Assembly: GCA_947176035.1 (NCBI GenBank)
Contig: CAMWPJ010000007.1
Span: 1-35,168, forward strand
Length of the DNA: 35,168 nt
DNA from: an uncultured Clostridia bacterium
GTDB taxonomy: Bacteria > Bacillota > Clostridia > Oscillospirales > Acutalibacteraceae
Reading direction: 5' to 3'
How positions within the stretch are numbered: the first letter of the stretch is position 1; every line of letters starts with the position of its first letter. Under the pieces are notes generated by a model that was given only the letters and a program-made list of their open reading frames with translations, had not been told where the DNA came from and made no database searches. This document shows positions 10,787 through 25,705 of the stretch, piece by piece. The position numbers were made by a program, and so were the translations under genes.

Positions 10787-12531
10787 ACTAATGCATCCTC
10801 CTTTGCGTAATTTTCAATATTTTGCTGTGTGTTCCACAATTTTGCATAACATCCGTTTAACGATAATAACTGCTCATGATTGCCGTATTCAACTATATTT
10901 CCTTTATCTAAAACATAAATATTGTCGCTGTTTACTACATTAGCAAGGCGATGTGAAATCAAAATAACTGTTTTTGTTTTTGCAAGGGTATATATCTGAT
11001 TCATAATTTCATTTTCACTCTCAATATCAATGTTTGAGGTCGCCTCATCAAAAATATAAATCGGGGTATTATGCAACAGTGCTCTTGCAAGGGCAAGTCG
11101 CTGGCACTGACCTCCTGAAAGATTGGATGCTTTTTCAGCAAGTGTGGTATCAAGACCATTTTCATTTTTCATAAAATCAGCAAGTTTTACCTGTTCAAGA
11201 GCACTCCACAATTCTGCATCTGTGGCATTCGGATTACCCATCAGCAAATTATCTTTTACTGTTCCTTTGAAAAGATAACTGTTGTGACTTATATAGGTTA
11301 TATTCTCCATAAGACTTTTTTCGGATATATCCTTCAGTTCATAAGTTCCGATAGCTATTGAACCTCTATAGCCTTTGTTTTTGCCTATAAGAATAGATGC
11401 TATTGTTGATTTACCACAACCGCTTTCTCCGACTATTGACACAAAACTGTTATGGTTATTAGGAATATTCATATTTATACCATGAAGAATTTCACGTTCT
11501 TCTTCATATGAAAAATGAACATTGTTACACACAATACCGTAATCATTACCAATAGCAAGTTTGTTATCCTGATTTTGTTCAGGCAAATCAAGAAATTTAA
11601 AAATCTTATCACTTGCAGCCATACCATTCATTGCTATATGAAAAAAGCTGCCTAACTGACGCATAGGGATAAAAAAATCAGCAGATAGAAGTATGATTAA
11701 AAGACATCCGCTAAGCGTAACCTTATCAGCCCGATACTGTGTTGCTGCCATAATTACACCTAATGCCGCACCACCATAAGCAATCAAATCCATAATGGTT
11801 ATGGAATTAAGCTGCATAGTCAGTACCTTCATAGTGATTTTACGAAATTTTTCCGACTCCTCGTTCATTTCATCGTTTTTATATTTATCTGCCTGATAGA
11901 TTTTTAATGTAGTCAAACCCTGCAGATTTTCAAGAAAAGTATCACCAAGCATTGTGTACTGTCCCCAGTATTTTGAAAGCAGTTTTTTTGCCCATGTTTG
12001 TACTGCTGCTATGGCAATCGGAATCAAAGGTACACATATCAGCAGTACAATTGCGGATGGAAAATTTATAAAGCTCAGATATATAAACAGCGTAAACGGT
12101 GCAAGCATCGAATAAAAAAATTGGGGCAGATAAGCACCGAAATATGTTTCAAGCTGATCCACACCCTCAACGGAAAATTGTACTATTTCGGCTGTTTTTA
12201 TCTGTTCGCCGTAGGATGTTCCGAGGTTAAGCAGCTTTATATATATCATTTCACGTAAGGTTTTCTTTACAGATTTTGAAGAAAGATAGCCCATTTTGCT
12301 TGCCATTATACTGCATATAAATCTGATTAAAACAGCAACAGCTGCAACCAAAATTGTTAGAATAAAATCTTTTGCTTCTGCTGCTTTTCTGAACAAACTC
12401 TGCAGAAGATATGTAATGCTTGTCATCATTGCAATATTTGCCGCAAGTGAACACCATTGAAAAATAACATTGCCTACTATATATTTTTTGCTGTCATTGA
12501 CTACATTTATCAGTTTTCTATTTATCATCAT
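10783..12531 (-). CDS. ABC transporter half, CydD-like (membrane plus ATPase domain)
   Basis: 582 aa partner of the CydC-like gene. It has the membrane domain (about 1-310) followed by an ATPase with Walker A GESGCGKST, signature LSGGQCQR, Walker B IYIFDEATSNID and switch ISHRL. The start is ATG-ATG at 12531 with only a weak GGGG-containing ribosome site, and 145 bp separate it from the importer ATPase gene. No strong promoter or terminator is evident in that gap, so read-through from the heme uptake genes is possible. Assignment to the CydD type rests on the paired arrangement and general similarity; other heterodimeric exporters cannot be excluded. Confidence 0.82.
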   Translation of the reverse strand: MMINRKLINVVNDSKKYIVGNVIFQWCSLAANIAMMTSITYLLQSLFRKAAEAKDFILTILVAAVAVLIRFICSIMASKMGYLSSKSVKKTLREMIYIKLLNLGTSYGEQIKTAEIVQFSVEGVDQLETYFGAYLPQFFYSMLAPFTLFIYLSFINFPSAIVLLICVPLIPIAIAAVQTWAKKLLSKYWGQYTMLGDTFLENLQGLTTLKIYQADKYKNDEMNEESEKFRKITMKVLTMQLNSITIMDLIAYGGAALGVIMAATQYRADKVTLSGCLLIILLSADFFIPMRQLGSFFHIAMNGMAASDKIFKFLDLPEQNQDNKLAIGNDYGIVCNNVHFSYEEEREILHGINMNIPNNHNSFVSIVGESGCGKSTIASILIGKNKGYRGSIAIGTYELKDISEKSLMENITYISHNSYLFKGTVKDNLLMGNPNATDAELWSALEQVKLADFMKNENGLDTTLAEKASNLSGGQCQRLALARALLHNTPIYIFDEATSNIDIESENEIMNQIYTLAKTKTVILISHRLANVVNSDNIYVLDKGNIVEYGNHEQLLSLNGCYAKLWNTQQNIENYAKEDALV

Positions 12532-12676: not shown

Positions 12677-13462
12677 TCAAATAGTTAATATAAATGGTTT
12701 ACCATTCATATTCTGTATATGCAAATCAACATCAAAAACTGATTGCAGCAGCTGCGTTGTAATAATTTTCTCCGGTACACCCTGTGCAATAATCTTTCCA
12801 TCTTTCATCGCAACAACTTCATCACTGTAATAAAGCGATTGATTTATATCGTGCAATACCATAATGATAGTAATACCAAACTCTCGATTCAATTTCTTAA
12901 TTAGTTTTAGAATTTGAAGCTGATAACGAACATCCAAATAGGTTGTCGGTTCATCAAGAAACAGAACTTTTGTATCCTGTGCCAATGCCATAGCAATCCA
13001 GACACGCTGCTTCTGCCCGCCTGAAAGCTTTGCAACAAGTTTGTTCTTCAATTTTAAAGTATGAGTGATTTCCATTGCCCATTGTATTTTCTTCTCATCC
13101 TCTTCTGCATTTTGCGGCATACCCAACTTATGATATGGAGTTCTTCCATAAGAAATAAGCTTTTCCACAGTAAGATCAGCAGGTGCAGTATTATATTGAT
13201 GAACAATAGCTGCTTGTTTTGCAAAATCCTTTAAGCGGATATCCTCAATATTTTTTCCGTTGAGTGTAATTTCTCCGCTATCAGGCTTCAGATTTTTTGT
13301 CATTAAATTAAAAAGAGTACTTTTTCCGCAGCCATTAGCACCAATCAATGTAGTAATTTTCCCCTCATTAAGAGCAAATGAAAGATCTTTTAAAACCTCA
13401 TGCTTGCCATAGGCAAAATAAAGATTTTTGACTGAATATACAATATTATTGTTCGCAGACAT
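12677..13462 (-). CDS. htsC: ATPase of the heme ABC importer (FecE/HtsC-like)
   Basis: 261 aa ATP-binding protein of an iron-siderophore/heme/B12-type importer. Motifs are Walker A GANGCGKST, signature LSGGQKQR, Walker B VLFLDEPTTYLD and switch VLHDINQ. It would power heme passage through the neighbouring permease at the cytoplasmic face. Its start overlaps the permease gene by 17 bp, and a GAGGAGGG ribosome site sits inside the end of that gene 7 nt before the ATG. Heme rather than siderophore as substrate is inferred from the partner lipoprotein and surface proteins. Confidence 0.9.
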   Translation of the reverse strand: MSANNNIVYSVKNLYFAYGKHEVLKDLSFALNEGKITTLIGANGCGKSTLFNLMTKNLKPDSGEITLNGKNIEDIRLKDFAKQAAIVHQYNTAPADLTVEKLISYGRTPYHKLGMPQNAEEDEKKIQWAMEITHTLKLKNKLVAKLSGGQKQRVWIAMALAQDTKVLFLDEPTTYLDVRYQLQILKLIKKLNREFGITIIMVLHDINQSLYYSDEVVAMKDGKIIAQGVPEKIITTQLLQSVFDVDLHIQNMNGKPFILTI

Positions 13463-14438
13463 TTTTTGCCCTCCTCAAAAGAATAATAAAGAACGGACCA
13501 CCGATTACAGCCATAATAATTGATGCACTGATTTCATAAGGATATGCTATGGTACGACCAATTGTATCAGCTAAAAGCAATGTGAATGCACCTAACAAAA
13601 TTGTATAAGGTATCAACACTTTATGATTTGAACCGACAAGCAAACGCGCGATGTGCGGAACAATAAGCCCCAAAAAGCTTATAGGACCAATAATTGCAGT
13701 TGAAATACTTGCCAAAAGCACAGCAATAATTGAAATTATAATACGGCTTTTTGTTACATTAACACCAAGTGAGCGTGCTGTCTTGTCCTCTAATGCCAAT
13801 AGATTACACTGTCGTGTTACAAACAAAGAAGCAAGCAATCCAATTACAGCATAGATAACAAGAGTCTTAAAGTCATCCCATGTTTTCATTGAAATATTGG
13901 CATTCACAATACTTGCAACACCGGAATATGTACTGCCTGTACCTGAATTAAAAGCACTCATCAAACCTGAAAGCATTGCCTCAACTGCAACACCAACAAG
14001 TATTATTCGGATAGGAGAAAGTCCGCCTTTCCATGAAAGACTGTATACTAATAAAAATGCGAGCATTCCTCCGATAAAGGCAAACAAGGGTGTAAAGAAA
14101 TACATTGCAGGAAAGAAAGCAGTAACAAGTACCGCAGTAAAACTTGCCCCTGAACTTACACCAATAATACCCGGATCAGCAAGTGGATTTTTCATAACTG
14201 CCTGTAACAATACACCTGAAACTGCTATTGCTGCACCACCAAGCATAGCTATAAAAATGCGAGGAAATCGCAAATCATAAATCGTTGCAACGTCAGGATT
14301 ATGTTCAACGAATAATCCCATGAACAGTTCTATCGGTGTAACCTTTAAGCTGCCTGTATTGACAGAAATCAAAAAAAGTGCAAGTAAACCAATAGCCGTT
14401 ATCAAAAAGGACAATACTTTTTTTCTTGTACTTATCAA
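13446..14438 (-). CDS. htsB: Permease of the heme ABC importer (FecCD family, HtsB/IsdF-like)
   Basis: 330 aa, a typical length for FecCD/BtuC permeases that work as homodimers, with about ten membrane helices. Family patterns are present: RFPRIFIAMLGGAAIAVSG near residue 60, NPLADPGIIGVSSGA near 85, and GPISFLGLIVPHIARLLVG near 245, the last contacting the ATPase. The start is TTG at 14438, with GGAGG 7 nt upstream. It lies 92 bp after the NEAT gene, and a hairpin in that gap may lower its expression relative to the surface proteins. Confidence 0.92.
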   Translation of the reverse strand: MISTRKKVLSFLITAIGLLALFLISVNTGSLKVTPIELFMGLFVEHNPDVATIYDLRFPRIFIAMLGGAAIAVSGVLLQAVMKNPLADPGIIGVSSGASFTAVLVTAFFPAMYFFTPLFAFIGGMLAFLLVYSLSWKGGLSPIRIILVGVAVEAMLSGLMSAFNSGTGSTYSGVASIVNANISMKTWDDFKTLVIYAVIGLLASLFVTRQCNLLALEDKTARSLGVNVTKSRIIISIIAVLLASISTAIIGPISFLGLIVPHIARLLVGSNHKVLIPYTILLGAFTLLLADTIGRTIAYPYEISASIIMAVIGGPFFIILLRRAKNVCEQ

Positions 14439-14530: not shown

Positions 14531-17122
14531 TTATTTACGCTTTTGCACTTTTGCGTTTTTTGTCACAATAATAGCACCAAACAGTCCAAATCCGGCAGCT
14601 GCAAGCATAGTCCACATTTCCATATCAGGAGCACCTGTATTAGGGCTTATTTTACTACTATTACCGTTCGATGCGTTCTCAGCGTCCGTAATAGTGCTGC
14701 CATTTTCAACAATTGCATAATTGCCTGCAGTCTTAGTAACTATTGTATAATAATCATCTGCTGCATTTCCATTTACAAGAGTTTTTGAGCCATCGTCATT
14801 TATACGATAAACAACAAGATTATTAGCATCATATCCTGCTGCAACAGGTAAGCTGATTGTTACTGTTCCATTAGGAGTAACTTCCTTGCCATCTGCATCA
14901 ACAAATTCAACATTATAAAGCTTAAACTTTTTACCAATATCACTGAGTACTGATACAGTATTGTCATAATCAGCACCTAATGTAATTTCAGTAACAACAA
15001 TCTGTACACCTTCTTCAAATACACCTTTATCTGCGTGTACTTTTACACCTGTTGCTGCATCCGTATAATCAACAGCAGGAGATAATTCTTCAGGCTCATC
15101 CGGAATGAATGCAGAATCATCCTCTGTTGTCTTTTTTAATGTGCTCCAGTCAAGCTTCAAAAGCACATCCTGATCACCTGTTCCTTCTGAAATATCCTCC
15201 ATTACAGGAACAAATACATGAAGAGGAACATAACCCTCGTCGTCATTCAAAGCATCTGTAACTAATGGAAATTTCAGCTGATCAGGATACAGCAAGCCTT
15301 CTGATGAACCGCCAACCTGATTAAATTCATCAACAACATCCGTACCATCAGCATTTTTCTGTGTAGAAAGAACTTCTGCAGGGATCAGATTTCCGTTTAT
15401 TGCTCCATACTGACCGTATGTATAGCCGTTGTCATAGTAGGACAAATTTGCAAGATAACCGAATCTATTAAGGTAATGTAAACCGTGAAAATCAAGAGTA
15501 AGATAATACTTTCCACCTTCAACAGTTAATTTTATTGTATGATTAACGGCATCGTTGCTCATGGATTTGTCCTGACGATTTACTTTAATCATTTCTCCAT
15601 TGATTGAATAAACGCCGTCATCAAGATTGTTTTTATTAAGTGAAGAATCAATATTCTTTACTTCAAGAGCTGCAATCGCCTCTGTAATTCTTTTGGCCAT
15701 AGCATCTACAGAATCCTGCTCAGTAATATTCTTCCCGCGTACAACAGAATTTTTAGCCTCATTAACAACATCAACACTTGCCTGTGTATATACTGTTAAA
15801 TCGGCAGGAATTTTTTCAATAGCAGCATCGACTGCACTGTAATCGGCATCCTTATAAACTAAAGCCTCTATTGCTGAATTCAAAGACTGGACAGCATTAC
15901 TTACCTCTGTTACACCTGCATCCTCATTGCTCTGTGCTTTTTCGGCAATCGCAAGTGCATCTTTCATTACAGCATAGCTCTCAACAGTATAAAGATTTTC
16001 ATTTATTTTCTTCGCCTGCTCAATTACCGAAATAAGTGTATCCTTTTCACCTTTAAAATCCAAAGAAGAAACTGCGGCATTCAGCTTTTCTGCCATTTCG
16101 GATTTTTCGATATCACTATATTCCTTTTGTTCCAAGTTCGGCTGTGCTGCAAAACCGCTGCCTGACATAGTAATAGTTTGATTAGGCCATACATTTTCAA
16201 GCTTTGTTGTTATTTCGCTAATTGCATTCTGTAAGGCTGTATAAGAAGAATCTGTATAATTGCCCTTTTCGATCTGCTTTGCATTCCAAAGACTGTATTC
16301 AAGATTTTTTTCAGGATTCTCAATTTTCTCAAGCGTAGTCCAATCAACCTTCATTCTTGCATACTGGTCACCTGATGACGCTGAAATAGAAAACATTACA
16401 GGTACAAATACATGTACATAAGCTGCATTATCAATTGTATATTCTGAAATATCAGTAGGGACGCCCGGATCATCGGTTGCAAAGCTGATATGTATCGGTG
16501 TAACATCAAGAGCCAATATATGTGAATATGGCTGATTACTGATATCAACTGTTCTGTCATAATCATAACCAAAACCCGCAGGTCGCTGTTTATTTCCATT
16601 AAAAACGGAGTCGGATTCAGGATTATTAAAGGCATCATAAACAGTTTCACCGCTGCATGTCATATGTCTTGCTAATACCTCTGCCGGAGTGAAAACGGCA
16701 TCTTTATCATAGACACCTCCCCACTGCTGAAGATATTTAGCATCCACGGCTTCAAGCTCCATCATAAAGCCATACATTCCGATATATCCCATTGGCATAA
16801 ACTCAACAATAGCTGTTGCCTTATTATCCTTTACAACAACTATTGATTTGTAATATGTATCATTTGGCTGCTTTTGCTTGAAGCTTGTGCTTCCTCTAAG
16901 AGCTGCATTTCCCATAGAAAACTGCTTAGGATTACTTGCCTGTAACAATTCAATATCCGCGTAATATACGCCATCCTCAACAGGAACATCAATCTTTTCA
17001 ATAGGAGTTGTTGGCTCAGCGGTTGCAGCAAATGCTGTAATACTCACTGCACCCAAGCACATAATAAGCGCCATAAACAGTGCTATACTGCGTTTGATCC
17101 AACTTTGCTTAGTTTTTTTCAT
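14531..17122 (-). CDS. Wall-anchored heme-binding surface protein with two NEAT-like domains
   Basis: 863 aa. A signal peptide (1-33, ending TAFAA) precedes the first NEAT-like domain (about 49-265, with SMGNAALRG near 69 and YVHVFVPVMF). A helical, Glu/Ala/Asn-rich FIVAR-like spacer (about 272-490) follows. The second NEAT-like domain spans about 501-662 (DDGVYSINGEM, YYLTLDFHGLHYLNRFGYLANL, YVPLHVFVPVME). A ZU5/Ig-like beta domain (about 690-805) comes next. The C-terminus has a sorting signal: SPNTG (826-830) as an LPXTG variant, a hydrophobic stretch and a basic tail. NEAT domains bind heme at the cell surface and pass it on. Both end with the same GDQ..KLDW-type tail, so they probably arose by duplication. 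AAAGGA lies 9 nt before the start. Assignment rests on domain patterns recognised by eye. Confidence 0.85.
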   Translation of the reverse strand: MKKTKQSWIKRSIALFMALIMCLGAVSITAFAATAEPTTPIEKIDVPVEDGVYYADIELLQASNPKQFSMGNAALRGSTSFKQKQPNDTYYKSIVVVKDNKATAIVEFMPMGYIGMYGFMMELEAVDAKYLQQWGGVYDKDAVFTPAEVLARHMTCSGETVYDAFNNPESDSVFNGNKQRPAGFGYDYDRTVDISNQPYSHILALDVTPIHISFATDDPGVPTDISEYTIDNAAYVHVFVPVMFSISASSGDQYARMKVDWTTLEKIENPEKNLEYSLWNAKQIEKGNYTDSSYTALQNAISEITTKLENVWPNQTITMSGSGFAAQPNLEQKEYSDIEKSEMAEKLNAAVSSLDFKGEKDTLISVIEQAKKINENLYTVESYAVMKDALAIAEKAQSNEDAGVTEVSNAVQSLNSAIEALVYKDADYSAVDAAIEKIPADLTVYTQASVDVVNEAKNSVVRGKNITEQDSVDAMAKRITEAIAALEVKNIDSSLNKNNLDDGVYSINGEMIKVNRQDKSMSNDAVNHTIKLTVEGGKYYLTLDFHGLHYLNRFGYLANLSYYDNGYTYGQYGAINGNLIPAEVLSTQKNADGTDVVDEFNQVGGSSEGLLYPDQLKFPLVTDALNDDEGYVPLHVFVPVMEDISEGTGDQDVLLKLDWSTLKKTTEDDSAFIPDEPEELSPAVDYTDAATGVKVHADKGVFEEGVQIVVTEITLGADYDNTVSVLSDIGKKFKLYNVEFVDADGKEVTPNGTVTISLPVAAGYDANNLVVYRINDDGSKTLVNGNAADDYYTIVTKTAGNYAIVENGSTITDAENASNGNSSKISPNTGAPDMEMWTMLAAAGFGLFGAIIVTKNAKVQKRK

Positions 17123-17151: not shown

Positions 17152-18042
17152 TTATTCTTCACCATACAGCATTGGCTGTAAGGCTTTGAGTGCGTCAGAA
17201 TATTTGAAATTCGCACTCATATTGAAAAGTGAAGGATCAAGGTCATAAACCTTACCATTCTGAACAGCACGAAAATGCTTCCAAATATCGTTTGTTTCAA
17301 ATTCTTCAGCAAACATTTCTTTAACCTGATCAGGCAAAGCGTGTGCCGCACGGAGAATTATATCCGGTTCTTTAGTTTTCATATCCTCAGTATTGGCAGT
17401 GAGAAATTCCTCGCCGTCTCCGTCACCATAAACATTAACACCGCCTGCAAGTTTAACAAGATTGCCTACATAGCTGCTTTCAGTGGCCACGATATATGAG
17501 CCGGGAAGTCCCATAAGCAAAAGAACTTTCGGACTTTCTTTGCCTTTACTTGCATTTTGATATGACTCCATAAATGAATCAAATTCTGCAAGCATCTCAG
17601 ATGCCTCTTTTTCACGGCCAAATTTTTTTCCAAGGTCTTCAATTGAGGCGTACATTCCCTCAACACTTTTTAAATTAAGGAAAAGCGAGTTTACTCCAAT
17701 AGAAGCATATTTGGGCTGTTGATCACTTTGCAAAGAATTCGGAGAAAGAACATAATCAGGATTAAGCGATTTTATAATTTCCAAATCCGGATTCATCGCC
17801 ATTCCGACTTTTGTCAAATCTTCATATTTTTCAGGAAGTGTACTGCTTGTTTCACACACACCAACCAAATCAAGATTAAGACGGCTACAAATCTGAGCAA
17901 CGGCAGGAGAAGTTGCAATCAGACGAACAGTTTCATTATTTTCCGAATGAACCTCTTCTTCCGGGTGCTGATTGACACAGGCACAGAATGAAAGCATCAT
18001 TACACCTGCAAGGAAAACACATAAAAATCGTTTTAATTTCAT
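17152..18042 (-). CDS. htsA: Heme-binding lipoprotein of the ABC importer (HtsA/IsdE-like)
   Basis: 296 aa. A lipoprotein signal ends in LSFCAC, so Cys20 or Cys22 is lipidated and the protein sits on the outer face of the membrane. The body is a helical-backbone substrate-binding protein of the BtuF/FhuD class. Characteristic IsdE/HtsA stretches are GLPGSYIVATESSYVGNLV, VKLAGGVNVYG and RAAHALP. HtsA and IsdE hold heme iron with one Met and one His. Here Met81 or Met83 (GMAMNPD) and His234 lie at matching positions. It takes heme from Shp or NEAT domains and feeds the permease. The gene follows shp by 12 bp and precedes the NEAT gene by 29 bp. Confidence 0.92.
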   Translation of the reverse strand: MKLKRFLCVFLAGVMMLSFCACVNQHPEEEVHSENNETVRLIATSPAVAQICSRLNLDLVGVCETSSTLPEKYEDLTKVGMAMNPDLEIIKSLNPDYVLSPNSLQSDQQPKYASIGVNSLFLNLKSVEGMYASIEDLGKKFGREKEASEMLAEFDSFMESYQNASKGKESPKVLLLMGLPGSYIVATESSYVGNLVKLAGGVNVYGDGDGEEFLTANTEDMKTKEPDIILRAAHALPDQVKEMFAEEFETNDIWKHFRAVQNGKVYDLDPSLFNMSANFKYSDALKALQPMLYGEE

Positions 18043-18054
18043 CCGCTTATCTCC

Positions 18055-18951
18055 TTATTTCTTTTTCTTATAAAAGCAGAAATACCATATAGCCGCACCT
18101 GCTGCTGCGACAATAACAATACCACCGACAATCCATCCTACTTTGTTGCTGTCGTTATTTTCAGGTTTTGATAAGTCTTCACTGCCAACCTCATTTCCGG
18201 ATGCATCAAACTCCTGCAAACCAGCACTATCGTCGTTTTGCTTAGAAGTATCATTAGCGATACTCTCAGTTGAATTTACTGCAACATTTGTGCTTTCAGC
18301 TGTCGTAGTCAAAGCAGTGGTATTTTCAGTTTCCGAAATCTCTGTAGCTTCTTCACTTTTATTTGCTGTAGTTTGAGATTGTGTTGAAGTCTTTACAGTA
18401 GTTTGCTTCTTTGTTGTTTCTTCAAGCTTTATACTCGTAACAAAATCATCTGATCCGGATTGCAAATCAGACACAGTAATATAAAATATTACATCTCGTC
18501 CCATTGGAATAACATACATATCACAGCGAATAACAGCATTTTCACTCGGAACATTCATACGATAGTCTGCAGTATTATTGATATAATCCTCCTGCATGAG
18601 AGAAGCAGAAACTGACGAAAATGAGCCATTTCTTTTTCCATCAACCTTAAACTTCGGATTTTGTATATTATCCATAAGCTGCAAACGAACAGTAACATAT
18701 GTATTACCTGATGAATCGACTTCTACGAGTGCTTTAGTATATGTAGCACTTTCTGTCATTGATTGACCTAGAACAGCAGAGCCCTCACCACCTGAATCCT
18801 CAATAATACCTGTACCAGGATGCTTATAATGAGGTGTAGCTGTCGCAATATATATACCATTGCTTGCCGCAAATGCCGTAACACAATTCAAGCTCATTAC
18901 AACAGCCAATACTATAGATATACAACATAGTATTTTAAAAATCTTTTTCAT
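18055..18951 (-). CDS. shp: Shp-like heme-binding surface protein
   Basis: 298 aa. A signal peptide (1-29) precedes the Shp heme-binding domain (about 31-178), recognised by ATPHYKHPGTG, EDSGGEGSAVLGQSMTE, TVRLQLMDNIQNPKF and MYVIPMGRDVIFY. A Thr/Ser/Glu-rich spacer (179-265) crosses the wall, followed by a membrane helix (271-293) and a KKKK tail, as in streptococcal Shp. Shp binds heme with two methionines (Met66 and Met153 in Streptococcus pyogenes). Met65 and Met150 fall at equivalent places here. In streptococci Shp takes heme from a NEAT protein and gives it to HtsA, whose homologue is the next gene. It is the first transport gene after the regulator, 41 bp downstream. Confidence 0.9.
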   Translation of the reverse strand: MKKIFKILCCISIVLAVVMSLNCVTAFAASNGIYIATATPHYKHPGTGIIEDSGGEGSAVLGQSMTESATYTKALVEVDSSGNTYVTVRLQLMDNIQNPKFKVDGKRNGSFSSVSASLMQEDYINNTADYRMNVPSENAVIRCDMYVIPMGRDVIFYITVSDLQSGSDDFVTSIKLEETTKKQTTVKTSTQSQTTANKSEEATEISETENTTALTTTAESTNVAVNSTESIANDTSKQNDDSAGLQEFDASGNEVGSEDLSKPENNDSNKVGWIVGGIVIVAAAGAAIWYFCFYKKKK

Positions 18952-18992: not shown

Positions 18993-19823
18993 TTAAATCA
19001 GAATGGTAAAAATAGCTGTGGATTCAGGCATATGTACTGAACCTGCCGAACTTCCCATTCTAACACAACAACTTCCATGAAGAATTTGACCAACACCACT
19101 TCCCATATTCAAAAAATTCAGTGCCTCAGCCGGGAAAGAAAATACATTACCATTTATTTCAGCATCAATAAATTGTCCGCTATCAAAATACTGCATACTT
19201 TGTGCCTTGCCACGCAGTAATTTTCCGTTTGAAGCAGACTTTGCAGATACTGTCTGTGCACAAAGCTGGATCCAGCCTTCACCATCTTCAACATACAAAG
19301 TACACGGGTGTTCAAAACCTTCATTTGCCATAGAAATATTACTGCCGTTTTTTACCTGTTCTCGATATATAAGAAATGGAAATTGATAAGATCCATTTTT
19401 CAACAGATTACAAAGCTGCTTTCCATTGAATGTTTTTTGATTACGAAGTTCATATTTAACTCTGTACTGTTCTTCTGTTGCCTTGACTGTGTTCATTGTT
19501 GCATCTGAACAATATAGAGCCCAATAAAAAGCATCACGCTTAGCATTTTCAATATCAACACCCTCATACAATAGATGATCCAGAGTGATTTCTATGCGTT
19601 CAGAATATCGAATACCCATCATATGCCCGCGTTCAGTCAACATAGGCTTACGCGGATTACTCCTGTCAAGCAGTCCGTCTTTTTCAAGAGCCATCATAGC
19701 ACGGCTGATATTCTGCTTAGATTCTTTCAGTGTTCGGGAAACTCCGGTTACTGTGCAGGATTTATCTTTTTTCAAAAAGCAAAGCAATATTCGCAGACGC
19801 AAAATATCCGGTGTTTCCAACAT
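18993..19823 (-). CDS. DtxR/MarR-like winged-helix regulator with unassigned C-terminal domain
   Basis: 276 aa. Residues 6-70 form a winged helix-turn-helix (SRTLKESKQNISRAMMALEKDG, then the wing LLDRSNPRKPMLTERG). Residues 70-115 resemble the dimer/metal helices of DtxR-family repressors (GVDIENAKRDAFYWALYCSDATM). Residues 130-276 match no domain I know; they look beta-rich and contain Cys138, Cys174, Cys188 and the pair Cys252-Cys253, possible metal or heme contacts. It is longer than DtxR or MntR. Being the first gene of the heme locus, with a perfect 13-bp inverted repeat 42-73 bp upstream, it is the best candidate for the repressor of that locus. The ligand (Fe2+, heme or other) is unknown. 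The ribosome site GGAG is 11 nt from the ATG. Confidence 0.75.
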   Translation of the reverse strand: MLETPDILRLRILLCFLKKDKSCTVTGVSRTLKESKQNISRAMMALEKDGLLDRSNPRKPMLTERGHMMGIRYSERIEITLDHLLYEGVDIENAKRDAFYWALYCSDATMNTVKATEEQYRVKYELRNQKTFNGKQLCNLLKNGSYQFPFLIYREQVKNGSNISMANEGFEHPCTLYVEDGEGWIQLCAQTVSAKSASNGKLLRGKAQSMQYFDSGQFIDAEINGNVFSFPAEALNFLNMGSGVGQILHGSCCVRMGSSAGSVHMPESTAIFTILI

Positions 19824-19864: not shown

Positions 19865-19896
19865 AAGCATTAGTTAGCTACCACTAACTAATGCTT
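19865..19896. promoter_or_regulatory. Palindromic operator upstream of the heme-locus regulator
   Basis: Perfect 13-bp arms (AAGCATTAGTTAG and CTAACTAATGCTT) with a 6-bp spacer. The core is GTTAG-N6-CTAAC, shared with sites at 21326, 21409 and 25049. A possible -10 (TATTAA, 19853-19848 on the minus strand) would place the -35 region inside the palindrome, which fits autorepression of the regulator and heme operon. Confidence 0.7.
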
Positions 19897-19899
19897 TCT

Positions 19900-19921
19900 A
19901 AAAAACTTCGCCTTTGCGAAG
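19900..19921 (-). terminator. Hairpin with T6 tail downstream of flavodoxin
   Basis: Six-bp GC-rich stem (CTTCGC and GCGAAG) with a 4-nt loop, followed on the minus strand by six T. It is a compact intrinsic terminator for the DUF3793-flavodoxin transcript, about 150 bp past the flavodoxin stop and just before the regulator's operator. A possible promoter at 19929-19956 would start RNA right at this hairpin, so it might instead be a 5' stem-loop. Confidence 0.65.
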
Positions 19922-19928
19922 CGTTCAT

Positions 19929-19956
19929 ATAATATCATACTTTTCTACATATTCAA
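19929..19956 (-). promoter_or_regulatory. Possible promoter for the regulator/heme operon
   Basis: On the minus strand, TTGAAT (19956-19951), a 16-bp spacer and TATTAT (19934-19929). Sequence quality is good, but it would begin transcription at the hairpin at 19906-19921. The alternative promoter over the 19865 operator is weaker in sequence. I cannot decide between them. Confidence 0.35.
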
Positions 19957-19965
19957 TAAGCAAAA

Positions 19966-19985
19966 TTGTCACATACTCGTGACAA
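19966..19985. promoter_or_regulatory. Palindrome TTGTCAC-N6-GTGACAA, copy 1
   Basis: A perfect 7-bp inverted repeat with a 6-bp spacer (ATACTC). It lies 10 bp upstream of the possible -35 box at 19951-19956. The identical arms and spacing recur at 20044, which suggests a protein-binding site rather than chance. I do not recognise the cognate regulator. Confidence 0.5.
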
Positions 19986-20043
19986 ATCAAGAGTTTTTGA
20001 TATTATAAAAAAGATTTTTTCCTTTTTTTATGCATTACTAACA

Positions 20044-20063
20044 TTGTCACACAGTTGTGACAA
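20044..20063. promoter_or_regulatory. Palindrome TTGTCAC-N6-GTGACAA, copy 2
   Basis: Same arms as the copy at 19966, 78 bp away, starting 11 bp after the flavodoxin stop. On the minus strand it can pair as 8 bp around a 4-nt loop, so an RNA hairpin at the 3' end of the flavodoxin message is an alternative. No T-run follows it. Confidence 0.5.
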
Positions 20064-20074
20064 AATTTATAGTT

Positions 20075-20503
20075 TTATGCTTCAGCAAGCAATTTTCCAA
20101 GCACAATACAAGCATCTTGTGCTTCATCATCAGGTGTTTCATTACAAATAACACTATCACAGACAAGCACTGCTCCATCTGCCTTGCATAATTCCTCCCA
20201 GCTGCGCATCCATTCGCCATCACCCCAGCCGTATGAGCCAAAGAGTGCGATTTTCTTACCGTTAAGCTTAGACGCACAACTTACAAACATTGGCTCAAAC
20301 TCACTATCCTCAAGCTGTTCACACCCCATTGACGGACAACCAAATGCAACTGCATCAAAATCATCAACCATATCCACGTTGAAATCAGTTGGGGTGAATT
20401 TTGCAACCTCAGCTCCTGCTGATACGGCTCCTTCTGCAACCTTTGCTGCCATTATTTCGGTATTACCCGTACCGCTCCAATAAACTACTGCAATTTTACT
20501 CAT
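20075..20503 (-). CDS. Short-chain flavodoxin
   Basis: 142 aa, the normal size of a short-chain flavodoxin, a small FMN electron carrier of the cytoplasm. The phosphate loop is YWSGTGNTEIMA near residues 8-19. The FMN-flanking loops are FGCPSMGCEQLE (near 53-64) and FGSYGWGDGEWM (near 88-99), the latter with the Tyr and Trp that sandwich the flavin. Flavodoxins often replace ferredoxin when iron is scarce. It follows the DUF3793 gene by 66 bp on the same strand, with AAAGGAGA before the start, and is probably cotranscribed with it. The palindromes upstream of DUF3793 make iron-responsive control likely. Confidence 0.93.
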   Translation of the reverse strand: MSKIAVVYWSGTGNTEIMAAKVAEGAVSAGAEVAKFTPTDFNVDMVDDFDAVAFGCPSMGCEQLEDSEFEPMFVSCASKLNGKKIALFGSYGWGDGEWMRSWEELCKADGAVLVCDSVICNETPDDEAQDACIVLGKLLAEA

Positions 20504-20569
20504 ATGTAAAATCTCCTTTCAAAAATATAATTTTTATATGATAACAGAATGATTCTGTAATACCCTTCA

Positions 20570-21124
20570 TCAAACTGCAACTGTCAGCTGCATAATATTT
20601 CTTTTCTCTTCACTCCAAAGGCGTGTATAAACTTCTCTGCACTTTTTGTATTTTGCAAAAGTACGAATTGCTTCACACTCATTGCAATAAACCTTCCAGC
20701 AACCGGTACATTTGCTATTTTCCCCTGCATTATCTATAAAGCCAATAACATCACCCAAAGGATAATCAAGAAAAATTCCTATTTCGTGAGGAAATGAATT
20801 ATATTGATTTAGTCTTATTTTCAGCCTGTTTATTGCATAATCAGCATCTGCACTTTCATATCCATATTCTGCTAAAAATTCTGCAACACCTGCTTTATTT
20901 AAATCCATTTGAAGCCTTGATTTACGGCAAACATAAATCAGTGCAAAACCCTTTTCCTTTTTCAGCAAAATCAATTCAATGCCTTTATTTTTAAAATTCA
21001 AATTCCATATATCAAGATATTTTGAAATATCCTCTTCAGCTTCAAAATGATATGTAAAAAGATTTGCAGTTTTCAAAGATGCAAGTGTTGGAGCACAATG
21101 CTCGATTAAATACTTTTCTATCAT
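20570..21124 (-). CDS. DUF3793 family protein
   Basis: 184 aa with the DUF3793 pattern: an N-terminal HCAPTLASLKTANLF segment, then FPHEIGIFLDYPLGDVIGFI, then a cysteine cluster CTGCWKVYCNEC (C-x2-C-x5-C-x2-C). The cluster could bind zinc or an Fe-S centre. No biochemical function is established. In Clostridia the family often sits beside flavodoxins and ABC transporters of iron-related loci, as here. AAAGGA precedes the start. Its 354-bp upstream region has two tandem GTTAG-N6-CTAAC promoters and two very short open frames in the leader, making this one of the more elaborately controlled genes in the window. Confidence 0.88.
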   Translation of the reverse strand: MIEKYLIEHCAPTLASLKTANLFTYHFEAEEDISKYLDIWNLNFKNKGIELILLKKEKGFALIYVCRKSRLQMDLNKAGVAEFLAEYGYESADADYAINRLKIRLNQYNSFPHEIGIFLDYPLGDVIGFIDNAGENSKCTGCWKVYCNECEAIRTFAKYKKCREVYTRLWSEEKRNIMQLTVAV

Positions 21125-21175
21125 AATAATCCTTTCATTATCAAGTCGGCAACTTTAACTTGATGTTAAAATATT

Positions 21176-21211
21176 CTAATTTGTAGTACCTTCCATATAG
21201 CAAGGCGGCAC
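21176..21211 (-). other. Possible leader peptide 2 (11 aa) before DUF3793
   Basis: A GTG-started frame encodes VPPCYMEGTTN and ends 51 bp before the DUF3793 start. GGTGA lies 7 nt upstream. It is very short and may be chance; the Pro-Pro-Cys start is suggestive of a stalling peptide only by analogy. Confidence 0.2.
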
Positions 21212-21230
21212 TAATGCATCACCGATAACT

Positions 21231-21287
21231 TTATTTTTTCAGTATAAAACTATACCATTTCCTTTGAAGAAAAGTATTATTTTTCAT
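21231..21287 (-). other. Possible leader peptide 1 (18 aa) before DUF3793
   Basis: ATG at 21287 encodes MKNNTFLQRKWYSFILKK, with AGGA 6 nt upstream. It is placed about 40 nt after the expected start of RNA from the promoter at 21326-21352. The product is basic and aromatic. Translation is not proven. Confidence 0.3.
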
Positions 21288-21325
21288 ACCGATTCCTGTA
21301 AAAATTAAAACACTCTTTCTATAGA

Positions 21326-21352
21326 GTTAGCACTGACTAACTTGATATTCAA
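21326..21352 (-). promoter_or_regulatory. Proximal operator-promoter of the DUF3793-flavodoxin operon
   Basis: On the minus strand, TTGAAT (21352-21347), 5 nt, then GTTAG-N6-CTAAC (21341-21326). The palindrome occupies the whole spacer up to the expected -10 (TAACTC), so a bound protein would block polymerase. The arrangement is the same as at 21409 and 25049. Confidence 0.7.
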
Positions 21353-21408
21353 AAAATATCGGCTTATTGCCGTAATGTGAATGTATGAAATATATTGTCC
21401 ACACATAA

Positions 21409-21435
21409 GTTAGCACAGACTAACCGATTTGTCAA
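21409..21435 (-). promoter_or_regulatory. Distal operator-promoter of the DUF3793-flavodoxin operon
   Basis: On the minus strand, a perfect TTGACA (21435-21430), 5 nt, then GTTAG-N6-CTAAC (21424-21409), with TAACTT at -10 distance (17 bp). It is 83 bp from the proximal site and begins just after the exporter terminator. Confidence 0.7.
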
Positions 21436-21441
21436 GAAAAA

Positions 21442-21470
21442 TTTTTAAGAGCCTGTATAAACAGGCTCTT
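21442..21470 (-). terminator. Terminator of the IrtAB-like ABC operon
   Basis: Nine-bp perfect arms (AAGAGCCTG and CAGGCTCTT) with a 6-nt loop, 9 bp past the stop of the second ABC gene. On the minus strand a T-run (ATTTTTC) follows. Confidence 0.8.
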
Positions 21471-21478
21471 ACGTATTA

Positions 21479-23212
21479 CTATGAAATAGTCCAGCTCTGC
21501 GACTGAGTCTGAAGGTCAACCATATGCTTAAAGATACCGTTTTTATTAAGCAGGCTTTGCGGTGTACCCGTTTCTGCTACATAGCCATCTTTGAGTACAA
21601 CTATCTTATCAGCACCTGCAACAGTTCTCATTCTGTGTGCAATAACAAGGACCGTCTTATTCTGAATGAGTCTTGAAAGTGCAGTCTGAATCAGTGTTTC
21701 ATTCTCAACATCAAGAGATGCCGTTGCTTCATCAAGCAAAATGATAGGTGCATTTTTTAAAAATGCTCGTGCAATAGATATTCGCTGTCGTTCACCGCCC
21801 GAAAGCTGGCATCCATTTTCACCAATATCTGTATTATATCCGTCAGGAAGCTTCAGAGCAAACTCGTCAACATTTGCAAGCTTTGCTGCTGCCATAACCT
21901 CAGCATCCGTTGCATCCTTTCTGCCTACACGGATGTTTTCCATAATAGAGTTATTAAACAGCGTTACATCCTGAAATACAATTGAATAAAGAGAAAGCAG
22001 TGTTTCAGGGTCAACCTTTGAAATATCCATACCACCAACAGTGATCATCCCCTGATTAATATCCCAAAAGCGTGATGCCAATCTTGATACAGTTGTCTTT
22101 CCGCCGCCGCTTGGTCCAACAAGCGCAGTAATCTCACCCTGCTTTGCAGTAAAAGTAATATCTTTGAGTACAGTTTCACCTGTGTTATAAGCAAAGCCTA
22201 CATTACTGAACTCGACATCATAGCTTGCATTTGAAAGATGATTGCTGCCTGTCTGAACAGGATGGAAAAGTATTTCATCCATTCGTTTAACATTAGTGCG
22301 AACAGAAATCACTGCTGCAAGATTCTGAAGTGCAGTTTGAAGAGGATCATAAAGTCTTGATACAACAAGAAGATACATAAAAAATGTGAGAACATTAATT
22401 TCGCCTTTAATCAATAGTGCCGACCCAACAAGTGCCGTAGTTGCTATACCGAGTTTCAAAATTAAACCTGCAGTAACTACAAAAGCAGCTACAGTAAATT
22501 CATTTTTTATGGAGCGGTTTTCTACAGTTTTAATTTTTTTATTTAATCCTTCCAGATAAGTATGCTCCGCATTATTTGCTTTCAAATCTCGTGATGTTTC
22601 AATACATTCCTGAATACCATCAGCACAGGCAATCTTTACTGCCATAGCCTTTTCACTGACCTTTTCCTGCACCTTTGCGGAGAATCCGACAATTGCAAAT
22701 GCAACAGGCAATACCCAAAGAGAAGCCAACGACATACGCCAATCAAAGAAAAGCATACTTATGGCAATAAGCGTTGTTGAAATAATTGAACCTATAAGGG
22801 TTGGTATATAATGTGAACCCGTTGTTTCAAGCGTTGCACAATCTGACATAATTGTGCTTGTTAAGTCTGCCAAATCCTTCTTTCCAAAAAATGAAAGCGG
22901 AATTTTTCGCATTTTCTCTGCCAGTGTAATTCGCCTTACACCTGACTCAATATAGGTTGAAAGATAAGTTGCATTATACTGAAACCAAGTTGCAAGCATT
23001 ATCAATGCAATACAGACAATACAACCAATCGCATAAAATAAAACTCTGCTTTTCTGAATACCGCCCTGCATTAAGTCACTAACAAGATAATATAGTAAGC
23101 TTACAGGGAACATCAGTGAGATATTCTGAAACACGCAAGCTGCAATACCCTTTATCAAATCCTTTGCACCTTTTTCAGAAAGCGCATATTTTCGCTGTAA
23201 TTTTTTTATCAT
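21479..23212 (-). CDS. ABC transporter half, IrtB/YbtQ-like
   Basis: 577 aa, exporter fold: membrane domain (about 20-310) and ATPase with Walker A GPSGGGKTT, signature LSGGERQR, Walker B IILLDEATASLD and switch IAHRM. The frame is open from 23233, but GGAGG lies 9 nt before the ATG at 23212, one nt past the stop of the partner gene. Pairs of this type include mycobacterial IrtAB and Yersinia YbtPQ, which despite exporter folds import siderophores. Many relatives have unknown substrates. A metallophore or metal-complex transporter is the best inference, supported by the shared palindrome with the heme locus. Confidence 0.85.
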   Translation of the reverse strand: MIKKLQRKYALSEKGAKDLIKGIAACVFQNISLMFPVSLLYYLVSDLMQGGIQKSRVLFYAIGCIVCIALIMLATWFQYNATYLSTYIESGVRRITLAEKMRKIPLSFFGKKDLADLTSTIMSDCATLETTGSHYIPTLIGSIISTTLIAISMLFFDWRMSLASLWVLPVAFAIVGFSAKVQEKVSEKAMAVKIACADGIQECIETSRDLKANNAEHTYLEGLNKKIKTVENRSIKNEFTVAAFVVTAGLILKLGIATTALVGSALLIKGEINVLTFFMYLLVVSRLYDPLQTALQNLAAVISVRTNVKRMDEILFHPVQTGSNHLSNASYDVEFSNVGFAYNTGETVLKDITFTAKQGEITALVGPSGGGKTTVSRLASRFWDINQGMITVGGMDISKVDPETLLSLYSIVFQDVTLFNNSIMENIRVGRKDATDAEVMAAAKLANVDEFALKLPDGYNTDIGENGCQLSGGERQRISIARAFLKNAPIILLDEATASLDVENETLIQTALSRLIQNKTVLVIAHRMRTVAGADKIVVLKDGYVAETGTPQSLLNKNGIFKHMVDLQTQSQSWTIS

Positions 23213-23213
23213 A

Positions 23214-24986
23214 TTACTGCACCTCCTTTGCAACTTTCCATTGTACGGATGACTGATAGCTATTCCACATTTTTGAAAACAATCCGTTTTCAGCTATTAG
23301 TTCCTCACAGGTTCCGTCTTCAACAATACTACCATTTTCAAGAACAAATATTTTATCAGCGTTGGCAACTGTTGACAGCCTATGCGCAATCATAATCACT
23401 GTTTTACCCTTTGAAAGCTCATTCATTGCCTGCTGAACTCTAACCTCATTATCAGGGTCCGCAAAAGCAGTTGCCTCATCCATAATGATTATAGGTGAAT
23501 TTTTCAGCATTGCTCTTGCAATTGCAATTCTCTGCTGCTCACCACCGGAAAGATAAACACCATTTGTTCCGATAACAGTATCAATACCATTCGGCAGCTT
23601 TTCAATAATATCCATACACTGTGCAGATTTTAAGGCCTGCATAACTTCCTCTTTAGTTGCGTTCGGCTTACCCATTCGCACATTGTCGAGTATTGATGCC
23701 TTGATAAGTTTACTATTCTGAAATACAAAGGATATTGTATTCATCAATGTTTCTTTTTGGATATCCTTAACATCAACACCGCCAATAAGCACTCTGCCTT
23801 CCTGCGGATCAAAAAATCTTGAAATAACATTAGCAAGCGTACTTTTACCACCGCCGCTTGGCCCTACAAATGCGACAGTCTGGCCTGATTTTATATCTGC
23901 AAACACATGCCTGAGTGCAAAATTTTCTCCATCATAGCTATAACTTACATTATCAATATTTACAGATGCGTCAGCCGGATGCTTTGCCTTATTTGTTTCT
24001 GACAGTGGTTTTAAATCAAGCACACTATCAATTTTCGCAATTGCATCATCAACAATCATCGTATTTTCACTTTGATACATAATCCTTGTCAATGTAACTG
24101 AAATTATCGGAGTAATGATTATATAAAACATAAGATTCAGCAGAAATTCGGTTGTTACACCATCCCTTGTAAAATAAATACCGGCAGCAATTAAAACTGC
24201 AAATACAGCATTTATTGCTGTAGTATAAAACAGCATCGGCAAACGCAAATCCTTTGTATAGGAGATTACCCATTTTTCATATCGTTCAATAGAATTTTTA
24301 AATTTTTTGAAAGAAAAAACACTCTGACCAAAGGTCTTAACGACCGGAATACCGCGCACATATTCAACAGCTTCATTCGACATATCATCCAATGCTTTCT
24401 GATATTCTGCCATTTTCACTTTCATGCTTTTTCCTGTCATGGCAGACATAATTATAAAGCCTAAAACTACAGGAACAACACTTAATAATCCCAGTCTCCA
24501 GTCAAAGGCAAACAATAAAACAATCAGTCCTACCGGAGTTACAATTGCCCCTGCCATATCAGGTAAGTTATGTGCAAGATAGGTTTCCGTTGCTGCACTA
24601 GATTCGTTTACAATTTTACGAAGCTTACCGCTGCCAAAGCGCTCGGCAAATCCAAGCGGCAATTCAACAATATGCTCCATTGCCTTTATTCTAATATTTG
24701 TTGCAACACGAAAAGCAGATATATGTGAGCACATTAATCCTGCAATATAAATTACAACTGACAGTACGGAAAATAAAACTGCCATCCAACCATTATGTGT
24801 CAGGTTTTCTGCCTTGCTGAAATCAGGAGAAACCTCAATCACCTCCTCTATTATTTTCCAAATGTACCAAAACGGCACAAGTGCAATAATTGCACTGACT
24901 GCTGATAAAATCCAAGAAGCATATGTAAAATATTTATGCCCGCCTGCATATTCCATCAGTGTTGATAAATTAGATTGCTTTTTCAA
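23214..24986 (-). CDS. ABC transporter half, IrtA/YbtP-like
   Basis: 590 aa partner of the gene at 21479. Membrane domain (about 15-320), then ATPase with Walker A GPSGGGKST, signature LSGGEQQR, Walker B IIIMDEATAFADPDNE and switch IAHRL. The ATAFADP form of the D-loop recurs in the IrtAB/YbtPQ branch and differs from the ATSNLD form seen in the CydDC-like pair of this window. The start is TTG at 24986, with GGAGG 7 nt upstream; a nearby ATG is out of frame. It is the first gene of a two-gene operon whose promoter carries the GTTAG palindrome between its -35 and -10. Confidence 0.85.
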   Translation of the reverse strand: MKKQSNLSTLMEYAGGHKYFTYASWILSAVSAIIALVPFWYIWKIIEEVIEVSPDFSKAENLTHNGWMAVLFSVLSVVIYIAGLMCSHISAFRVATNIRIKAMEHIVELPLGFAERFGSGKLRKIVNESSAATETYLAHNLPDMAGAIVTPVGLIVLLFAFDWRLGLLSVVPVVLGFIIMSAMTGKSMKVKMAEYQKALDDMSNEAVEYVRGIPVVKTFGQSVFSFKKFKNSIERYEKWVISYTKDLRLPMLFYTTAINAVFAVLIAAGIYFTRDGVTTEFLLNLMFYIIITPIISVTLTRIMYQSENTMIVDDAIAKIDSVLDLKPLSETNKAKHPADASVNIDNVSYSYDGENFALRHVFADIKSGQTVAFVGPSGGGKSTLANVISRFFDPQEGRVLIGGVDVKDIQKETLMNTISFVFQNSKLIKASILDNVRMGKPNATKEEVMQALKSAQCMDIIEKLPNGIDTVIGTNGVYLSGGEQQRIAIARAMLKNSPIIIMDEATAFADPDNEVRVQQAMNELSKGKTVIMIAHRLSTVANADKIFVLENGSIVEDGTCEELIAENGLFSKMWNSYQSSVQWKVAKEVQ

Positions 24987-25048
24987 GCATATCCCTCCTT
25001 AAAAATTTATTTATACACACATAAGTGTTATATATTATTTTGCCCTTA

Positions 25049-25075
25049 GTTAGTTACAGCTAACTTTGGTGTCAA
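25049..25075 (-). promoter_or_regulatory. Operator-promoter of the IrtAB-like ABC operon
   Basis: On the minus strand, a perfect TTGACA (25075-25070), 5 nt, then GTTAG-N6-CTAAC (25064-25049), with one extra matching base on each arm. TAACTA stands at -10 distance (17 bp). It matches the DUF3793 promoters to the base in -35/operator spacing. Confidence 0.72.
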
Positions 25076-25097
25076 AAATTAAGGGGTTTATAGCCCC
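25076..25097 (-). terminator. Weak terminator overlapping the tetR stop codon
   Basis: A four-bp GGGG/CCCC stem with a 7-nt loop contains the TAA stop of the TetR gene and is followed by TTAATTTTT on the minus strand. The stem is short, so some read-through into the ABC operon is likely. Confidence 0.45.
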
Positions 25098-25705
25098 ATA
25101 ATTTTATTCCAGCCCGCCATATGAAACTCTCTTAACTGGGCAATAAACACCTTTGCTCTTTCCTTGGGCATATCGTGATACAAAGCCTCAAAAATTCCGT
25201 TGAACATTCCGCTTGCTATCATATGCGCAAGATCGTCATCAATAGTTTTAACATCATTGCCAAGCCTTTTTAAAACCTCAATGTATCTGAAAGTAGATTC
25301 AACTTCAACCTCAACCATTCGGTCAACGAAGGTTTCATAAGATGTGCCATCATTACAGCATATAAGAATTTTAACCTCTTCATAATGGTCATACATATAG
25401 TCAATTGTCCAGTTCACACATTCTGTCGATTCAACGCCCATATGATCAGGCTGTTCTTCATAAGGTAAATCAGCAAAATCGAGCTGAGCCTTCATAAATC
25501 TACCCATTATTGCAGCTGCGTGCGGCTCAACAATAGATGCATAAAGAGCCTCTTTACTTGAAAAATATCCATAGAAAGCACCTGTTGTTACACCTGCTTC
25601 TTTAACAATATTTCTTAGTGAGGCCGTTTTAAAACCTTTTTTTAAAAATTCCTTTTTACCTGCACTTATAATATTATGCAATGTTACTGCATCATCATTA
25701 CTCAT
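25088..25705 (-). CDS. TetR-family transcriptional regulator
   Basis: 205 aa, normal TetR length. The N-terminal helix-turn-helix is typical: LRNIVKEAGVTTGAFYGYFSSKEALYASIV at about residues 25-55 as one continuous motif region. The all-helical C-terminal ligand domain has no recognisable specificity; it contains a C-C pair (ILICCNDG) near residue 110. It lies directly upstream of the ABC pair on the same strand and has a near-perfect palindrome at its own promoter, so it should repress itself. The ABC promoter carries a different palindrome, so TetR control of the transporter may depend on read-through. Confidence 0.88.
   Translation of the reverse strand: MSNDDAVTLHNIISAGKKEFLKKGFKTASLRNIVKEAGVTTGAFYGYFSSKEALYASIVEPHAAAIMGRFMKAQLDFADLPYEEQPDHMGVESTECVNWTIDYMYDHYEEVKILICCNDGTSYETFVDRMVEVEVESTFRYIEVLKRLGNDVKTIDDDLAHMIASGMFNGIFEALYHDMPKERAKVFIAQLREFHMAGWNKIMGL

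Follow-up and report, generated by a model that had tools for sequence, protein, structure and literature searches.

Among described iron repressors, the closest to the system reported here are DtxR and IdeR, in which a winged helix is combined with a metal-binding dimer domain carrying a Cys-x2-Glu-His motif; their operators are interleaved 19-bp boxes, and one IdeR dimer occupies TTAGGNNNNCCTAA (PMC8464063, in excerpt). In Corynebacterium glutamicum, DtxR and the heme-responsive two-component system HrrSA have common targets (PMC12327846, in excerpt). Iron-repressor operators also precede small RNAs that carry a C-rich unpaired region and an intrinsic terminator, namely FsrA, which is under Fur and targets gltAB and lutABC (PMC8464778, in excerpt), and IsrR (PMC9410917, in excerpt). 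Here, we analyzed a window, that is, the whole stretch of 35,168 nucleotides from an uncultured Clostridia bacterium (Acutalibacteraceae; assembly GCA_947176035.1, contig CAMWPJ010000007.1, positions 1 to 35,168, forward strand), in which the palindrome GTTAG-N6-CTAAC stands 5' of a heme operon, a DUF3793-flavodoxin operon and an operon for a pair of ATP-binding cassette (ABC) half-transporters. Two proteins come into question as its reader, namely P0002, a DtxR encoded beside feoAB elsewhere in the genome, and P0001, a winged-helix protein with a NEAT-like domain encoded in the window at 18993-19823 and hereafter called NEAT-DtxR. We propose, with a probability of about 0.8, that P0002 is a global Fe(II)-type DtxR acting on GTTAG-N6-CTAAC, and that NEAT-DtxR is a second, probably heme-responsive, regulator acting on another palindrome, TTGTNNC-N6-GNNACAA. 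The iron regulon itself is of a familiar type.

Only four exact copies of GTTAG-N6-CTAAC occur in the window, where dinucleotide shuffles gave a mean of 0.01 and none of 100 reached four.

19873..19888, predicted operator 5' of the NEAT-DtxR/heme operon, with arms extending to 13 bp (19865-19896)
21326..21341, predicted operator of the DUF3793-flavodoxin operon, proximal copy, with -35 box TTGAAT at 21347-21352, minus strand
21409..21424, predicted operator of the DUF3793-flavodoxin operon, distal copy, with -35 box TTGACA at 21430-21435, minus strand
25049..25064, predicted operator of the ABC pair, with -35 box TTGACA at 25070-25075, minus strand

A sequence-only reading of this DNA had reported these four copies, their positions 5' of the three operons, the 13-bp arms of the copy before gene 18993-19823, and the start of three copies exactly 5 nt after a -35 hexamer on the transcribed minus strand; each of these statements was confirmed. 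The copy at 19873 sits between an intrinsic terminator and the NEAT-DtxR gene and, unlike the other three, has no -35 box 5 nt 5' of the palindrome. Since allowing up to two mismatches gave no excess in the window (9 found versus 11.4 expected), only exact copies are informative. Across the entire draft genome, which spans 2.16 Mb in 186 contigs, nine exact places (18 strand rows) were found versus four for the reversed control pattern, a count weak by itself, so the argument rests on the position of the copies. Eight of the nine are intergenic, and the ninth (C15:22533, locus L002), within an open reading frame (ORF) of 105 amino acids, is taken as chance. Two exact pairs with copies 25 bp apart lie outside the window, one between feoA-feoB and the divergent P0002 gene (L003) and one intergenic on contig 4 (L001).

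The full promoter site, TTGACA-N5-GTTAG-N6-CTAAC, was found 28 times (four in this genome) in 19 of 150 genomes of the family, and its reversed pattern was not found. Eighteen of these strict sites precede feoA and/or feoB, three precede ABC-transporter-like genes, three the small RNA described below and two other genes; the remaining two are the window's own DUF3793-flavodoxin and ABC-pair sites. The scan of genome and relatives proposed in the sequence-only reading thus placed the motif mostly between genes in this genome and mostly before feoA/feoB in the family. A survey of the genus with up to one mismatch found the promoter site in 42 of 60 genomes, at 63 places, against four hits for the control. 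Among the 50 places that were classified (the other 13 being 12 from three genomes treated separately and one in G415), 26 stand upstream of feoA/feoB-like genes, which include distant homologs.

Alignment of 60 distinct TTGA-type promoter sites gave the consensus TTGACAAat.aGTTAGttt.TGCTAACaTAta, and the operator therefore occupies the 17-bp spacer together with the extended -10 element. In 49 of the 60 sites, a further operator (up to two mismatches) follows 24-34 bp downstream, and in 41 it stands at 25-26 bp, compared with 0.8 in shuffles. As far as can be judged from sequence, this placement is the geometry of steric repression, which upholds the earlier suggestion of a repressor site. 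The assignment to the DtxR/IdeR type also stands: the half-site spacing, TTAG-N6-CTAA, is identical to that of the IdeR one-dimer site (PMC8464063, in excerpt), except that here an outer G/C replaces the inner G/C, and separate single-dimer sites about 25 bp apart take the place of interleaved boxes. Iron dependence of the operator would follow from the protein family and the targets.

Two leader regions of the window carry further signals. At 19905-19922 and 19929-19956 on the minus strand, upstream of the NEAT-DtxR gene, a promoter-like site (TTGAAT, extended -10 TATTAT) stops just short of an intrinsic terminator, which is followed by the GTTAG hairpin with 13-bp arms; this arrangement could be a leader attenuator, or nothing more than the point where the flavodoxin operon ends. 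In the stretch that separates the two spaced operators (21342-21408), a short GGC..GCC hairpin is followed by a T run (TATTTTTT); visual inspection showed this element in three genus loci (the window, and downstream of the promoter site in L054 and L037).

P0002 (G000:C68:10696-11064, divergent from feoAB) is a canonical two-domain DtxR of 123 amino acids that exceeds both Pfam iron-repressor cut-offs (PF01325, 45.4 bits versus 26; PF02742, 53.4 bits versus 27), and its sequence matches the structures of MntR, DtxR and IdeR. Its DAC-x2-EH, YERH and YLE residues, read against what we take to be the metal-ligand positions, and its recognition helix KPSVS show almost no variation across 25 segments, its own included. 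A divergent P0002 ortholog (at least 63% identity) adjoins 11 of the 28 strict family sites. Moreover, the promoter site, at up to one mismatch, is present in every one of the 20 genus genomes (of 60) whose P0002 match reaches 70% identity. P0002 shares the winged helix, the metal-binding dimer domain and Cys-x2-Glu-His with DtxR/IdeR, and differs from them (PMC8464063, in excerpt) in being a 123-residue two-domain protein of a Clostridial host. Together, these data suggest that the reader of GTTAG-N6-CTAAC is likely to be the putative Feo-linked DtxR P0002.

The sequence-only reading had instead assigned the palindrome to the protein at 18993-19823. It is true that NEAT-DtxR has a DtxR-like winged helix (the front part of the ortholog profile matches MntR at E=2.1e-11) and that its alignment with P0002 spans the winged helix and the dimer region. 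However, other residues stand at the metal-ligand positions (R for E, I for H, F-x2-A-L for C-x2-E-H), its recognition helix is KQNIS rather than KPSVS, and a different palindrome tracks that helix, as described below. Nor did the expected co-occurrence of motif and gene appear: the strict motif occurs without a full NEAT-DtxR match in 14 of the 19 family genomes, which the sequence-only reading had itself named as evidence against its assignment. In this count, G134, with a NEAT-DtxR fragment at a contig end, was scored as having the protein, and three of the 14 (G036, G123 and G142) have only weak N-terminal matches (25-29%) to other winged-helix proteins; as the genomes are drafts, any single absence is soft. 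NEAT-DtxR was therefore rejected as the main reader on three grounds: motif-bearing genomes that lack it, its differing helix and its own palindrome. The earlier assignment is probably wrong, and we regard a NEAT-DtxR that reads GTTAG-N6-CTAAC, alone or together with P0002, as quite improbable.

Several observations nevertheless weigh against our proposal. An Asn stands in P0002 where DtxR has its N-terminal ligand. Among the 40 genus genomes below 70% identity to P0002, 22 also have the site (up to one mismatch), many with an altered -35 box; G401, G438 and G448 carry sites but no P0002 match at E<=1e-20, and G343 has an exact site with a best P0002 match of only 54%. Of the 16 named NEAT-DtxR loci, 15 contain exact GTTAG palindromes (13 clearly intergenic, one where a broken gene ends in L132 and, in L127, only within genes), which fits NEAT-DtxR as reader too, in a count that took in NEAT-DtxR loci only. 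Finally, the second palindrome is missing from 4 of 24 NEAT-DtxR loci.

In genus members whose best P0002 match is about 50-57%, the operator often follows TTGCCAT and not TTGACA (L068, L070, L074, L075, L076, L089, L094, L104 and L105). An exact GTTAG-N6-CTAAC also lies at a similar place within the Shp coding sequence of L137 (9895) and L127 (9259), probably owing to coding constraint.

NEAT-DtxR orthologs were found in 7 of 391 genomes of the class, this one included, and at the 16 named genome loci, where a NEAT surface gene was seen in 10, Shp in eight and IsdE in seven, several of the loci being incomplete. The protein scores 30.9 bits against NCBIfam MntR, far under the cut-off of 153. 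The back part of the ortholog profile matches IsdA (2.4e-6), two chains named 'Conserved domain protein' (3e-6) and an 'Iron Transport-associated domain protein' (2e-5), and the C-terminal profile alone matches NEAT heme domains over the first half of the domain. Pfam NEAT is found at E<=0.01 in 16 of 21 orthologs; the window's own protein scores 20.4 bits, under the gathering score of 32.8. A profile of the C-terminal domain recovered four of eight surface NEAT proteins encoded in operons of this kind but no sequence from a set of 500 shuffled ones, and gave no match to the window's own surface NEAT protein, Shp or IsdE.

The classical heme-ligating motif of NEAT domains is YxxxY. NEAT-DtxR resembles the NEAT heme domains of IsdA and IsdC in a profile match that takes in the SMAN-x-x-F region, but it is fused to a winged helix, and a reading of the ortholog alignment found no conserved Tyr in the C-terminal strand region, where the classical heme tyrosines stand. 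In their place, NEAT-DtxR has nearly invariant His172, Cys174, Cys138 and His249. By sequence profiles, the predicted fold is a winged helix with a NEAT-like domain, and NEAT-DtxR seems to be made for heme, as a putative heme-responsive regulator. To our knowledge, the NEAT domain is known only from surface heme capture; if our reading is true, the fusion moves it into transcription control.

The second palindrome is present twice beside the NEAT-DtxR gene.

19966..19985, TTGTCAC-N6-GTGACAA, proposed NEAT-DtxR operator, one of only two exact copies in the genome
20044..20063, TTGTCAC-N6-GTGACAA, second copy, 78 bp from the first

Genome-wide, up to two mismatches gave 7 places versus 7 for the control, so solely the two exact copies stand out. 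In its general form, TTGTNNC-N6-GNNACAA (up to one mismatch at the fixed positions, within 450 bp before or 500 bp after the gene), it was found at 20 of 24 NEAT-DtxR loci, against a shuffle mean of 0.35 and maximum of 3; the form was derived by inspecting 19 of the 24, and the count is thus partly fitted. Four of the five loci added after the motif was set have it, one of the five (L138) carrying the same protein as L137; L122/L123, L130/L131 and L142/L143 are near-identical pairs. Eight loci have two copies, spaced 67 or 68 bp apart in two, 74 bp in one and 77-79 bp in five, and spacings of 67.5 and 78 bp are one helical turn apart.

The two inner operator bases track the helix residue aligned to what we take to be DtxR Pro39. 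Loci with Y or W (13) have AG or TG in both arms and never CA, those with Q (five) show CA in one or both arms but neither AG nor TG, the one with V has TT and the one with S has AC. Within the Q class, CA is found in both arms in the window and in the further-downstream copy of L126, and in a single arm in L122, L123 and L128. When the helix columns were left out of the tree, Q arose by three changes, and a single origin is not rejected (AU test, p=0.064).

The second palindrome could instead be read by a third factor, or act as an RNA hairpin or terminator, with its link to NEAT-DtxR being mere neighborhood. It is known only by position and sequence, both window copies score as weak terminator-like hairpins, and the possible single origin and the single-arm CA of the three Q loci fit such an explanation. 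Against this stand the match between helix residue and inner bases, the repeated change to Q, and an N6 spacing equal to that of a DtxR-type single-dimer site. We therefore consider this explanation rather unlikely, and NEAT-DtxR probably reads TTGTNNC-N6-GNNACAA as its proposed operator. The paired change of recognition-helix residue and operator bases would form a natural specificity series.

The tandem operator on contig 4 (L001) is followed by a terminator and by no gene. Comparison of loci revealed six homologous RNAs with a CU-rich 5' stretch and a terminator hairpin with a large loop. The 5' stretch, ACUCCUUAAGUUAA, is exact in four of them, with variants in G434 and G021, and the loop reads ACCACCUACAUCA in four, with a close variant in the others. 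The stem covaries, with 97% of cells paired and 14 cells changed on both sides (neither value was attained in any of 500 shuffles), and with both-side change at 6 of 12 pairs (attained by 10 of 500 shuffles); slid controls paired in 28-54% of cells, and the stem pairs were hand-picked on the same alignment, which raises the covariation score.

A covariance model of the terminator alone, run over 80 genus genomes, gave eight hits: five of the six training members, G469, G417 and G408. The last is an ordinary terminator without an operator and was discarded as false; the training member that the search missed, G434, may have been lost to stricter search filters. G469 is wholly new and lies behind a tandem operator. 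In G417, the tandem operator and the 5' stretch were known before; according to the model, its terminator lies about 330 nt further downstream. The loop there lacks its ACCACC part, and a long insert is present. With G434 counted, the RNA occurs in eight genomes of the genus, each with TTGACA-N5-GTTAG-N6-CTAAC and a second copy about 25 bp on. Its seed pattern was found in 4 of 398 family genomes; the hit in G138, outside the genus, has long open frames and no operator in the stretch shown, and was taken as chance. On its own strand, the stretch in this genome has no Rfam match at gathering score.

The RNA could be a mere terminator or leader and not a trans-acting small RNA: it is known from sequence only, and a target search with the sequence complementary to the 5' stretch (TTAACTTAAGGAGT, at most two mismatches) gave 17 hits, the RNA itself included, versus 51 for the reversed control. 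On the other hand, no downstream ORF of at least 100 amino acids is common to any two of the eight genomes (E<=1e-10), the loop and the 5' CU-rich stretch are kept while the stem covaries, and both members found by the terminator model outside its training set lie behind tandem operators. We consider a mere terminator or leader improbable, although it retains a real share of the likelihood; the iron DtxR operator appears to drive an apparently undescribed, predicted small RNA. An upstream gene is common to three of the genomes (G000, G149 and G417).

Three of the 17 target hits have one mismatch, and one of these is the Shine-Dalgarno sequence of a glutamate-synthase-type amidotransferase gene (L145, Pfam GATase_2; predicted duplex -29.6 kcal/mol); a LUD-domain gene (L160) is a two-mismatch hit. 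Such targets would be attractive in view of gltAB and lutABC, the targets of FsrA (PMC8464778, in excerpt). Predicted pairing with glutamate synthase leaders ranges from -16.1 to -28.6 kcal/mol in the eight genomes with the RNA and from -8.7 to -23.1 kcal/mol in 20 without it (paired with this genome's RNA), with wide overlap and confounding by kinship. Two of the 30 genomes asked gave no match, the G459 leader is unlike the rest, and the G434 gene is split in two. With the complement of the loop, 27 hits were obtained versus 17 for the control, none compelling. By analogy, the RNA may have a role like that of FsrA or IsrR; it differs from them, as far as the excerpts describe them, in sequence, in having candidate targets only and in being confined to one genus as far as searched, and from FsrA in standing under a DtxR-type operator and not under Fur.

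Inserts in the RNA body of very roughly 40-250 nt, judged by eye (L036, L038 and L120), have inverted-repeat borders in L036 and L120 and look as if small mobile hairpins had landed there. Slightly beyond the RNA locus, on the other strand, lies a pemK RNA motif (L001:8012-8076, Rfam 51.3 bits, gathering score 34.8).

The sites and their geometry, the conservation, the domain make-up and the covariation are read from the DNA, and the scheme that we build on them would work as follows. With iron present, P0002 would occupy one or two GTTAG-N6-CTAAC sites across the promoter, each a single-dimer operator, and shut feoAB, the heme operon, DUF3793-flavodoxin, the ABC pair and the small RNA. With iron absent, all these targets would be released, two of them, flavodoxin and the small RNA, serving to save iron. 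NEAT-DtxR would add a second input, most likely heme, via its own palindromes by the heme genes, which would then answer to both iron and heme. The metal and heme ligands, the direction of control and the RNA targets are what we infer in this scheme. An iron sensor and a heme-responsive regulator would have common targets, as in C. glutamicum; however, HrrSA is a two-component system (PMC12327846, in excerpt), whereas the proposed heme branch here is a one-component winged-helix-NEAT protein with a presumed heme response. Iron control in these Clostridia could then be annotated from sequence through an iron-sensor code, a proposed heme-sensor code and a small RNA. We tentatively extend this, at somewhat less than even odds, to a Clostridial one-component heme sensor in which a cytoplasmic NEAT-like domain replaced the DtxR metal site and the helix-base code is changeable, in series with a Feo-linked DtxR that drives a new CU-rich iron-sparing RNA.

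A full-text search of the open-licence literature found no recognized description of a NEAT-DtxR fusion or of this operator, and found DUF3793 mentioned in one paper only, on a fungus. Within the reach of this search, both NEAT-DtxR, whose operator shifts, and the CU-rich RNA under proposed DtxR control are new.

The earlier claim that the regulon combines heme uptake, DUF3793-flavodoxin and the ABC pair is supported, although its list was incomplete, with feoAB and the small RNA lying outside the window. The window genes concerned are as follows, all on the minus strand.

12677..13462, heme importer ATPase (Pfam ABC_tran, 6e-35)
13446..14438, heme importer permease, FecCD-type (Pfam FecCD, 3e-88)
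14531..17122, NEAT/FIVAR surface protein (Pfam NEAT, 3e-12)
17152..18042, IsdE heme ABC substrate-binding protein (TIGR03659, 396 bits, cut-off 299)
18055..18951, Shp-type cell-surface heme-binding protein (Pfam HemeBinding_Shp, 5e-56)
18993..19823, NEAT-DtxR (P0001), DtxR/MntR-like winged helix without metal ligands plus NEAT-like C-terminal domain
20075..20503, flavodoxin (TIGR01753, above cut-off)
20570..21124, DUF3793 protein (Pfam, 6e-58)
21479..23233, ABC exporter-fold half-transporter, second of the pair (domain library matches)
23214..24986, ABC exporter-fold half-transporter, first of the pair (domain library matches)
25088..25705, TetR-type regulator 5' of the ABC pair (domain library match)

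The operator also lies 5' of the orthologous ABC pair in L125 and L137; in L096, a locus that reaches no further than the first gene of the pair, it precedes that gene. The gene order TetR-operator-ABC is retained in L096 and L125. Beyond the heme importer genes, and on their strand, lies another pair of ABC half-transporters with the exporter fold (9128-12531, minus strand).

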